Shown here: positions 1,736 to 27,884 of the stretch, piece by piece
Position numbering within the stretch: the first letter of the stretch is position 1
Layout: every line of letters starts with the position of its first letter
Origin: Pseudomonadota bacterium
GTDB taxonomy: Bacteria; Pseudomonadota; Gammaproteobacteria; Pseudomonadales; Moraxellaceae
Direction of reading: 5' to 3'
DNA: 40,825 nt
NCBI GenBank assembly: GCA_021781515.1
Contig: JAJXWR010000012.1
Coordinates: 1-40,825 of the forward strand
Notes under the pieces: generated by a model
Database searches by the model: none
What the model saw: the letters and a program-made list of their open reading frames with translations, nothing else
Told to the model about the DNA's origin: nothing
Translations under genes and position numbers: made by a program

Positions 1736-1764
1736 TTGACGCTTCCAACAACTAGTTCTATAGT
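1736..1764 (+). promoter_or_regulatory. Sigma70-type promoter of the dcw cluster (Pmra)
   Basis: TTGACG (1736-1741) and TATAGT (1759-1764) are separated by exactly 17 bases, an almost consensus sigma70 promoter. The expected start of transcription, near 1771, falls just before the MraZ repeats. This is the arrangement described for the mra promoter of enterobacteria, where MraZ represses its own cluster. Confidence 0.8.
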
Positions 1765-1774
1765 TTGCGCACCG

Positions 1775-1819
1775 GTGGGGAAATGTGGCGCAATGTGGGA
1801 AAAACTGGTTTCAGTGGGG
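1775..1819 (+). promoter_or_regulatory. MraZ operator: GTGGG-like repeats every 10 bp
   Basis: Five G-rich pentamers are seen: GTGGG at 1775, GTGGC at 1785, GTGGG at 1795, CTGGT at 1805 and a final TGGGG at 1815. Each is spaced by one helical turn. MraZ family proteins bind TGGG repeats separated by five bases between the promoter and mraZ. The array spans the presumed 5' leader and ends 10 bases before the mraZ start, so bound MraZ rings should block transcription. The last repeat may also serve as the ribosome binding site of mraZ. Confidence 0.85.
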
Positions 1820-1829
1820 TGATTCTGAC

Positions 1830-2285
1830 GTGTTTCGTGGTTTCGACAGTCTTAATATGGATTCGAAGGGCCGGTTGGCGCTTCCGGGTCGTTATCATGA
1901 GCGGGTCGAAGAGCGCTGTCAGGGTCGGTTTGTGGTGACGGTTGATTTGCATGAGGCGTGTCTGGTGATTTATCCGTTGCCGGAATGGGAGTTGATTGAG
2001 AAGGCGTTTAATGCCTTGCCGGGTTCGGACAAGACCTTGGCGTTGTTGCGGCGGCGCATTGTGGGGTATGCCACAGAGATTCAGATGGACAATTCCGGGC
2101 GGTTGTTGATCAGCCCGGAACTGCGGGAATTTGCGGCATTAGAGAAAGAAGTGGTGTTGGCAGGTCAGGGAAAAAAATGTGAATTATGGAACCGTAGTGC
2201 CTGGGAGGCAATCAATGCCAAGGCATTGTCGGCTGATTTTTCTTCGGCGCAATTGGCGCAGGCTATCGATTCTCTGGCGTTGTGA
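1830..2285 (+). CDS. mraZ: MraZ, transcriptional regulator of the dcw cluster
   Basis: A 151-residue protein with two AbrB-like/SpoVT beta-barrel repeats carrying the family signature DSKGRL near the N-terminus and DNSGRLLI in the second half. A frame upstream is open from 1785, but MraZ proteins begin MFRG, so GTG 1830 is chosen. TGGGG lies about ten bases upstream. The protein forms a ring that binds the repeats at 1775-1819 and represses the cluster, in which it is the first gene. Its stop overlaps the rsmH start. Length and motifs match the family, with no oddities. Confidence 0.95.
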   Translation: MFRGFDSLNMDSKGRLALPGRYHERVEERCQGRFVVTVDLHEACLVIYPLPEWELIEKAFNALPGSDKTLALLRRRIVGYATEIQMDNSGRLLISPELREFAALEKEVVLAGQGKKCELWNRSAWEAINAKALSADFSSAQLAQAIDSLAL

Positions 2286-3223
2286 TGACGGATTTACATG
2301 AAACGGTGCTGGCGGAGGCAACGGTGTCGGCGTTGGTGTCGAACCGGGAAGGGCTGTATGTGGATGCCACGTTTGGTCGTGGCGGTCACAGTCGGCGTTT
2401 GTTGCAGGTGTTGGGAAGTTCCGCGCAACTGCTGGTGATCGACCGGGATCAGCGAGCGATAGCGGTTGCTGAGGCCTTGGCGTTGCGGGATCGTCGGGTG
2501 GTGGTGCGTCAGGGGAGTTTTAGTGAATTAGGGCAGTGGCTGACCCTTTCTGGATGGATGGGTCAGGTCAGCGGGGTGCTGATGGATTTAGGGGTGTCGT
2601 CACCGCAGCTGGATGCAGCGGAACGAGGATTCAGCTTTCAGGCAGACGGGCCACTGGATATGCGGATGGATCAGGATCAGGCAGTAAGTGCACAAACGGT
2701 TCTGGCTGAGATGGATGAAAAATCGCTGGCAGAACTGTTTGTGACGTATGGGGAAGAGCGTTACGCTCGGCGTATTGCTCGGGCATTGGTGGAGGCCAGA
2801 AAAAAAGAACCGTTGCTCAGAACGCTGCAGGTAGCGAATCTTATTGCGCGTGCGCATCCTTCCTGGGAACGGCATAAGCATCCGGCAACCCGGTGTTTTC
2901 AGGCGTTGCGTCTTTATGTCAATCGAGAACTGGAAGAATTACAGCAGGTGCTGCCGATGGCGCAGAACGCCTTATGTTCAGGCGGTCGGTTGGCGGTCAT
3001 CAGTTTTCACTCGCTGGAAGACCGTATCGTCAAGCAGTTTTTTCGGCAGGGGGTCGCCCCGGTGCAGGATCGACACGCCATGTGGAATCCTCAGGCACAG
3101 GCGCTACGCCCTGTTTTTTCTTATGTGATCAAGCGAATGGAACCTTCTGCCGAAGAAGTGCAGCGTAATCCCCGATCTCGTTCAGCACACCTGCGGGTGG
3201 TTGAACGACTGGCCGTAGGCTGA
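2285..3223 (+). CDS. rsmH: RsmH (MraW), 16S rRNA m4C1402 methyltransferase
   Basis: A 312-residue class I methyltransferase that N4-methylates C1402 of 16S rRNA using SAM. The SAM-binding loop DATFGRGGHS lies at residues 27-36, followed by the inserted helical domain (LFVTYGEERYARRIARAL) and the family block FQALRLYVNREL. The C-terminal block ISFHSLEDRIVKQFF is diagnostic. ATG 2285 overlaps the mraZ stop by one base; GTG 2282 is an alternative start adding one residue. It sits second in the cluster, as in most bacteria. Confidence 0.95.
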   Translation: MTDLHETVLAEATVSALVSNREGLYVDATFGRGGHSRRLLQVLGSSAQLLVIDRDQRAIAVAEALALRDRRVVVRQGSFSELGQWLTLSGWMGQVSGVLMDLGVSSPQLDAAERGFSFQADGPLDMRMDQDQAVSAQTVLAEMDEKSLAELFVTYGEERYARRIARALVEARKKEPLLRTLQVANLIARAHPSWERHKHPATRCFQALRLYVNRELEELQQVLPMAQNALCSGGRLAVISFHSLEDRIVKQFFRQGVAPVQDRHAMWNPQAQALRPVFSYVIKRMEPSAEEVQRNPRSRSAHLRVVERLAVG

Positions 3224-26284: not shown

Positions 26285-27661
26285 TCAGTATTTGTAGGTG
26301 TCGGGCTTGAAGGGGCCTTCCACGGGCACACCCAGATACTCGGCCTGTTCTTCGGTGAGTCGGGTTAATACTCCACCAAACCCCAGAACCATGGCGGCTG
26401 CGACCTCTTCGTCCAGTTTTTTCGGCAGTACACTGACACTCAGCTGTGATTTTTTCTGGGAGTCCGTGGCATCGGCAAATTTTTGCTGAAAAAGATGCAG
26501 TTGTGCCAGTACCTGATTGGCAAATGACCCATCCATGATGCGTGAAGGATGGCCCGTGGCATTGCCCAGATTGACCAGGCGTCCTTCCGATAACAGAATC
26601 AGGTAATCACCGGACTGCTCTGACCGGTAGATTTTATGAACCTGTGGTTTGATTTCTTCCCAGCGCCAGGAATCACGCAGGTACGCCGTATCAATTTCTG
26701 TATCAAAGTGCCCAATATTGCATACCACGGCACCGGGTTTTAACTGACGTAACATGGCGGCATCACACACCCGGGTATTACCGGTGGTGGTAACGAGTAA
26801 ATCGGTTTGAGCAAGCAGGGGCTGGTTAATATCGGCATCACGACCCGTAGTAATGCCATTATGGTACGGGGAGACGACTTCATAGCCGTCCATACAGGCC
26901 TGCATGGCACAGATCGGATCAATCTCGCTGATGCGCACAATCATGCCTTCCTGGCGTAGCGACTGCGCCGATCCCTTGCCCACATCACCATAACCGATGA
27001 CCAGTGCCCGGCGTCCCGCCAGCAGCATGTCCGTGCCGCGCTTGATCGCATCATTCAAAGAGTGGCGGCAGCCGTATTTATTATCGTTTTTACTCTTGGT
27101 CACCGAGTCGTTGACATTGATGGCCGGAACCCGCAACGTACCCGCACTGAGCATCTGATGCAGTCGGGCGACGCCGGTGGTGGTTTCTTCAGTGATGCCA
27201 TGAATAGCGGCAAGCATCTCCGGGTACTTTTCGTGAATACGCTGCGTCAGGTCGCCGCCATCGTCCAGGATCATGTTGGCCGCCCAGGGCTGGCCGTCTT
27301 TGATAATCGTCTGGTCAATGCACCACCAGAATTCTTCCTCTGTTTCGCCTTTCCAGGCAAATACCGGAATGCCTGCCTGTGCGATGGCTGCGGCAGCATG
27401 ATCCTGCGTGGAAAAAATATTACAGGAGGACCAGCGGACATCGGCACCCAGTTCGATCAAGGTTTCGATAAGCACAGCGGTCTGAATGGTCATGTGGATG
27501 CAGCCGAGAATATGCGCACCTTCCAGGGGCCGCAGGGCTTTATAGCGCTGGCGCAGTCCCATAAGTGCCGGCATTTCTGCTTCAGCCAGGGTGATTTCCC
27601 GCCGGCCAAAATTCGCCAGCTGGATATCGGCCACCTTGTAATCTTTAAATGCTGTTGTCAC
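26285..27661 (-). CDS. ahcY: AhcY, S-adenosylhomocysteine hydrolase
   Basis: A 458-residue NAD-dependent enzyme splitting SAH into adenosine and homocysteine. Seen motifs: [13 protein letters not shown] (56-68), [15 protein letters not shown] (78-92), [16 protein letters not shown] with Lys189, the NAD loop GYGDVGKG (223-230) and the C-terminal KPDTYKY, whose Lys and Tyr close the neighbouring subunit's NAD site. The frame opens at 27745, but GTG 27661 is preferred: it follows GGAGGGAAAG and gives the family start [11 protein letters not shown]. An SAH riboswitch lies about 105 bases upstream, so transcription or translation should rise when SAH accumulates. Confidence 0.96.
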
Positions 27662-27766
27662 TGCCTTTCCCTCCAGGAACGGGTTGAGTTGCTGAATTGC
27701 CTTGTAATATCGTGCTAATCCTGCGGCAGGGAGGAAAACAGACAACGCCCGCCATCCGCAAGGGTA

Positions 27767-27833
27767 GCGAGCGCAGTTAAGGCAGTGATGCCACTGAGCC
27801 TGGCGGATAAACCGTTGCAGCGCTCCTCAGTTC
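27767..27833 (-). ncRNA. S-adenosylhomocysteine (SAH) riboswitch
   Basis: On the minus strand the leader of ahcY reads GAGGAGCGCTGC, then CCGCCAGGCTCAG, then AACTGCGCTCGC. These are the three conserved blocks of the SAH riboswitch. GAGC-type bases pair with the second block, and GAGCGC pairs with GCGCTC of the third block in the pseudoknot. This aptamer class is known upstream of ahcY, often with metF, in beta- and gammaproteobacteria, and it activates expression on binding SAH. The expression platform probably lies in 27662-27766, which I could not resolve. Confidence 0.92.
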
Positions 27834-27884
27834 CCTTATTTTACTGTTTTTTGCAGATTATGCCAGTAGCTAGTGCGGCGGTGC

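Follow-up and report, generated by a model that had tools for sequence, protein, structure and literature searches.

The segment from position 1775 to position 1808 of the window (the whole 40,825-nucleotide stretch of Moraxellaceae DNA analyzed here, i.e., positions 1 to 40,825 of the forward strand of contig JAJXWR010000012.1 in assembly GCA_021781515.1) is very probably the autoregulatory MraZ operator of the dcw cluster, as predicted from its sequence. A first-pass annotation had proposed such an operator together with a sigma-70-type promoter, and this proposal is well supported: a phased triple of GTG units precedes nearly all mraZ genes surveyed, and array and gene are absent together within the window's family. 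We regard this joint presence and absence as strong comparative evidence that the predicted element is an MraZ operator. Arrays of this kind were known beforehand, and the one in the window is an ordinary MraZ operator; what the survey settles is the reading of one dcw promoter. The features of the region are listed in Table 1.

Table 1. Promoter, array, and genes at the start of the dcw cluster (positions in the window)
Feature	Position	Strand	Details
Promoter	1736..1764	+	-35 TTGACG 1736-1741, N17, -10 TATAGT 1759-1764
Predicted MraZ unit 1, GTGGGGAAAT	1775..1784	+	Core GTGGGG; 4.1 bits
Predicted MraZ unit 2, GTGGCGCAAT	1785..1794	+	Core GTGGCG; 8.6 bits
Predicted MraZ unit 3, GTGGGAAAAA	1795..1804	+	Core GTGGGA; 12.1 bits
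Degenerate unit 4, CTGGTTTCA	1805..1813	+	CTGGTT; 4.5 bits
Block called repeat 5, most likely Shine-Dalgarno region (GTGGGGTGATT)	1814..1824	+	16S pairing
mraZ	1830..2285	+	GTG start; MraZ, 151 aa; PF02381, 1e-29; start MFRG conserved
rsmH (mraW)	2282..3223	+	Listed ORF span; next dcw cluster gene

Upstream of mraZ, the window carries at least three GTG(G) units with a 10-bp period (the spacing between units 1, 2, and 3 is exactly 10 bp), and the array lies between the -10 element and the mraZ start codon, over or just past the inferred transcription start. The unit matrix came from 120 loci that do not belong to the window's family. With this matrix, the array's two overlapping triples scored 24.8 and 25.1, while the next best triple on either strand of the 40.8 kb reached 9.7. 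The pattern GTGG-N6-GTGG-N6-GTGG has a single exact match in the window; a version with two mismatches gave 8 matches window-wide versus 9.2 expected, which is chance level. The five repeats in helical phase that had been claimed for this array were not found, as there are three clear units and one degenerate unit, unit 4 is followed by a GTGGGG at a step of 9 bp (1814), and the position that would be in phase for a fifth unit (1815, TGGGGT) scores -6.9 bits, compared to 7.3 bits for the off-phase position 1814. Thus, the repeat positions 1775, 1785, 1795, and 1805 of the first-pass annotation stand, but the last repeat-like block begins at 1814 and not at the in-phase 1815. Judging by its score and by the GTG or NTGG present at its place in some other loci, unit 4 may plausibly be a weak MraZ contact.

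The mraZ frame adjoining the array is intact, and its product matches PF02381 with 102.8 bits (cutoff, 23) and has MraZ relatives with solved structures; the sequences DSKGR and DNSGR in this protein fit the DXXXR motif of MraZ. The GTG at 1785, which would yield the longest ORF, was rejected as the mraZ start, the conserved start being the MFRG encoded from 1830. The ATG of rsmH at 2285 shares one base with the mraZ stop codon; the name rsmH follows the E. coli gene order. Farther upstream of mraZ, at 364 to 1073, the window encodes a FitA-like ribbon-helix-helix protein and a PIN-domain protein, likely a toxin-antitoxin module. The place of this pair is occupied by rnpB in three relatives (L006, L010, and L011), and the rnpB gene of the window's own genome sits on another contig (C20). 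Elsewhere in the window, an SAH riboswitch (RF01057; 49.8 bits) was found on the minus strand at 27762 to 27834, just before an ORF (26285 to 27745) that we take to encode an adenosylhomocysteinase and that is followed by an apparently MetF-like ORF.

Loci for the survey of mraZ upstream regions came from relatives of the window (MraZ match in 33 of 58 genomes), a species collection (23 loci), a search of class genomes (100 of 114 matched; of these 100, 88 were retrieved as loci, 2 were already in the set, and 10 were left out), and E. coli K-12, and three further genomes from the relatives' search were added. Copies (L031 to L035 and L037), loci with the gene cut by a contig end (L015 and L049), and loci lacking an MraZ profile match (L052 and L053) were dropped; once copies and truncated genes were gone, the profile located 136 MraZ genes. 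Upstream of 132 of these 136 genes, but not of the other 4, lies a phased triple whose score exceeds the 99th percentile for mononucleotide shuffles, a count based on a matrix trained on the same loci, a flaw from which the matrix with the window's family left out is free. With the window left out, GTG was found at offsets -10, 0, +10, and +20 in 58, 127, 121, and 114 of 131 loci, respectively, the last three offsets being the places of units 1, 2, and 3 of the window. At +30, the place of unit 4, 22 of 127 other loci show GTG and 31 show NTGG. Farther downstream, the corresponding numbers are 0 and 3 of 118 at +39 and 2 and 7 of 115 at +40, and GTG occurs in 9 of 113 loci at +41 and in 5 of 80 at +50 (again with the window left out). 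A reduced set of 116 loci without identical upstream regions, from which the window's family, four Flavobacteria-type loci, and one paralogue were left out, gave the same picture (GTG in 0 of 103 loci at +39 and 2 of 100 at +40).

The number of in-phase units among the 132 loci was 3 in 41, 4 in 70, 5 in 17, and 6 in 4 by a relaxed count, and 3 in 55, 4 in 67, and 5 in 10 by a strict count. Since both counts show loci with four and with five in-phase units, neither number is remarkable; three to four phased units are the rule across the survey. Exceeding the usual three repeats would be nothing new, as four in-phase units form the commonest class in the survey and four repeats have been published for Burkholderia cenocepacia (see below). 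Comparing repeat number in relatives, as had been proposed, did reveal five in-phase units elsewhere (10 of 132 loci by the strict count) but not in the window. Locus L017 carries the five-unit in-phase array GTGTCGAAAT GTGGTTAATT GTGGGTATTT GTGGGTCAAA GTGGCTAGCA, and the five-repeat question would be better studied there than on the window. A candidate compensation between extra units upstream and extra units downstream was dropped, because an anticorrelation of this kind necessarily arises when the best triple serves as the reference.

An MraZ match was absent in 11 of the 16 genera sampled from the window's family (one of these 11 being represented only by a 68% complete genome). The anchor rsmH was matched in all 41 genomes; 30 loci were returned (11 genomes gave none) and 29 were used, with L160 left out because its contig starts inside mraZ. 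The presence or absence of mraZ was called by profile at these loci (for genomes G171 and G173, this refers to the locus only). All 13 loci with mraZ contained the array (triple scores of 21.7 to 31.2, 505 to 527 nt before rsmH), and none of the 16 loci without mraZ did, the best triple over the 700 nt scanned scoring at most 7.1. That highest value, in L183, exceeds the threshold of 4.2 (which was set for 250-nt stretches), yet there is no GTG array at this locus. Four of the 16 mraZ-less loci (L171, L173, L174, and L175) keep the same promoter, TTGACG-N17-TATAGTTT, which conforms to TTGAC-N18-TATAnT, 135 to 151 nt before rsmH, without an array; rnpB lies near the dcw promoter in these four, and L006, L010, and L011 likewise have it ahead of mraZ. 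In short, operator and mraZ go together, and the promoter can stay without either. Among the loci examined, the family thus provides a clean natural experiment, with the operator only where mraZ exists, although joint absence does not amount to many independent events, since a single deletion may have removed both the gene and its operator.

On the basis of its pairing potential, the G-rich block at 1814 is most likely a Shine-Dalgarno sequence and not a fifth MraZ unit. The best window for pairing with the standard 16S tail is GGGGTGATT at 1816 to 1824, with -12.2 kcal/mol, and ends 5 nt before the start codon. The corresponding best windows are GGAGTGATT in L003 (at nearly the same distance), AAGGGAGAT in L004, CAAGGAGAG in L005, and AAGGGGTGA in E. 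coli; in L002, L010, and L011, the best window is at another place, which means that not all relatives show a strong ribosome site. The in-phase fifth position scored negatively in all 11 family loci scored, including the window (-3.3 to -23.1; L006 was too short for scoring). The earlier observation that the last repeat lies at the ribosome-site position is correct insofar as the block overlaps the best Shine-Dalgarno match, but not insofar as the block was called an MraZ repeat.

We consider it distinctly improbable that the GTGGGG at 1814 is a fifth functional MraZ contact that covers the ribosome site and adds a further, even translational, block. The block does score well as a unit, with only 0.07% of window positions equaling its value, and the occurrence of GTG at +41 and of NTGG at +40 is somewhat above that at most off-phase places; in L007 and L010, a GTGG lies out of phase close to the start codon. 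Moreover, a 9-bp step is not forbidden, since Mycoplasma gallisepticum MraZ bound an HsdC site with a GTG spacing different by 1 nt in vitro (PMC5282649). These points are outweighed by the near absence of GTG at +39 and +40 and by the negative in-phase scores across the family, and a translational block would additionally involve binding of MraZ to RNA, for which there is no evidence. The 5' leader folds no better than shuffled sequences (z = +1.2), and no RNA structure was found at the ribosome site. Neither the offsets, the 16S pairing, the unit scores, nor the folding lends comparative support to a translational autoregulator resembling ribosomal proteins, and the idea that MraZ blocks translation of its own gene is left without support, the G-rich block being explained by 16S pairing.

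The TTGACG-N17-TATAGT promoter noted earlier before mraZ was borne out, with 10 of 12 consensus matches. By itself, this match is weak evidence, because a sequence at 1247 to 1276 ties with it at 10 of 12 and the region from 1100 to 2300 holds 5 promoter-like matches versus 2.3 expected from shuffles. What counts is conservation and not match score: TTGACG and CTATA-T are kept in the 12 family loci. Transcription would be expected to start at about 1770 to 1773. Upstream of the promoter, at 1578 to 1720, lies a module that is conserved in, and particular to, the window's family. A TATAAC box is found 14 to 16 nt 5' of the -35 element in 10 of 12 family loci, and TATAWC occurs upstream of the -35 element in 9 of 11 family loci versus 0 of 88 others. 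IHF-like matches to YAAN4TTGWWW lie at about -54 and about -109 from the -35 element in 7 and 9 of 11 family loci versus 0 and 2 of 88 others, respectively, and a TTATAACYAAAAATT-like sequence is situated farther upstream.

The survey further shows that the -10 element and the array often have a unit in common. An array unit directly follows TATA in 76 of 132 loci (with CATA and AATA counted as TATA), and its GTG overlaps the final two positions of the -10 hexamer. When units are counted from there, 53 of these 76 arrays have 4 units, 12 have 5, 2 have 6, and 9 have fewer than 4. The other 56 loci, to which the window and 9 further members of the 12 family loci belong, lack this coupling; within the family, L006 and L007 keep it. 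A literature search, with Eraso 2014 and Fisunov 2016 outside its range, yielded no paper that we recognized as describing the coupling; we do not claim that it is unreported. Tentatively, and with more doubt than confidence, we offer a joint reading. The common gammaproteobacterial operator would have four units, the first built into the -10 element (TATA/GTG), with some bases read by both sigma factor and MraZ. In the window's lineage, the array would have shifted 1 to 3 bp out of the -10 register; the shared unit would have been lost and a weak fourth unit retained on the downstream side, and the upstream module, with its TATAAC box and its pair of IHF-like sites spaced about 54 bp, would have been gained. 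Repression there might now act just downstream of the start instead of by occluding the -10 element.

Returning to the predicted operator, a ring-shaped MraZ oligomer would contact successive GTG(G) units, which, recurring once per helical turn, would line up on one side of the helix for roughly three to four turns, with three strong units, a weak fourth, and the 1814 block left as the probable Shine-Dalgarno sequence. MraZ would thereby sit over the transcription start and the initially transcribed region of the sigma-70-type promoter and, when bound, would change, most likely lower, transcription initiation of mraZ-rsmH-ftsL-ftsI and the genes that follow. For the window's operator, we infer MraZ binding, the ring form, the start site, and the sign of regulation alike. 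A protein bound over a transcription start usually blocks it, and the position of the array between the -10 element and the start codon, over the expected transcription start, argues against the opposite possibility that bound MraZ activates the dcw cluster, which we think unlikely. In published accounts, MraZ is described as a repressor in M. genitalium and, by citation, in E. coli, whereas deletion of mraZ in Neisseria elongata lowered dcw expression (mraW to murF) and overexpression of mraZ raised that of the first seven genes; since the latter data oppose the former, the sign may differ between hosts.

A G-quadruplex downstream of PmraZ has been reported in Staphylococcus aureus, and the G tracts of the window might be thought to act in the same way. 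This seems hardly credible for the window, as 1775 to 1819 contains just three runs of at least three G's, with long gaps between them, and as the conserved feature is GTG at a 10-bp period, in an array that is gone where mraZ is gone. Other strong MraZ targets did not emerge from the window's own genome, though weaker sites may be present; there, the strict triple pattern gave 9 matches versus 8 in a reversed control. Seven strict matches were scored (two overlapping registers of a TTGTG repeat were left out), with the mraZ site at 24.8 and the other six at 5.0 to 11.5; three of these six, at two places, are located in acyl-carrier-protein-like frames.

Finally, the window can be set beside three known systems. 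The E. coli K-12 MraZ operator (Pmra) was reportedly described by Eraso et al. in 2014. Like the window, this locus (L156 in our survey) has its array before mraZ, with three units, GTGGGAAATT GTGGGGCAAA GTGGGAATAA, followed by the ribosome site GGGGTGAGG; unlike it, the window has a recognizable weak unit 4, and its unit 1 lies at -55 from the start codon instead of -44. The E. coli mraZ leader is given as 38 nt, which places the E. coli transcription start inside unit 1. The Mollicutes MraZ site, cited as (AAAGTGKN3)3 in PMC5282649, shares with the window's array a GTG core and a 10-bp period and is bound by an octamer; in the window, unit 1 is without flanking A's and unit 4 without the GTG core, and the hosts are distant. 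In B. cenocepacia, the PmraBc promoter has four GTG repeats (7 nt plus a 3-nt spacer) to which MraZ binds in an electrophoretic mobility shift assay (PMC7761207). As in the window, these GTG repeats follow a 10-bp period downstream of the -10 element and over the start site; they differ in that four repeats are described there, against three strong units and one weak unit in the window.
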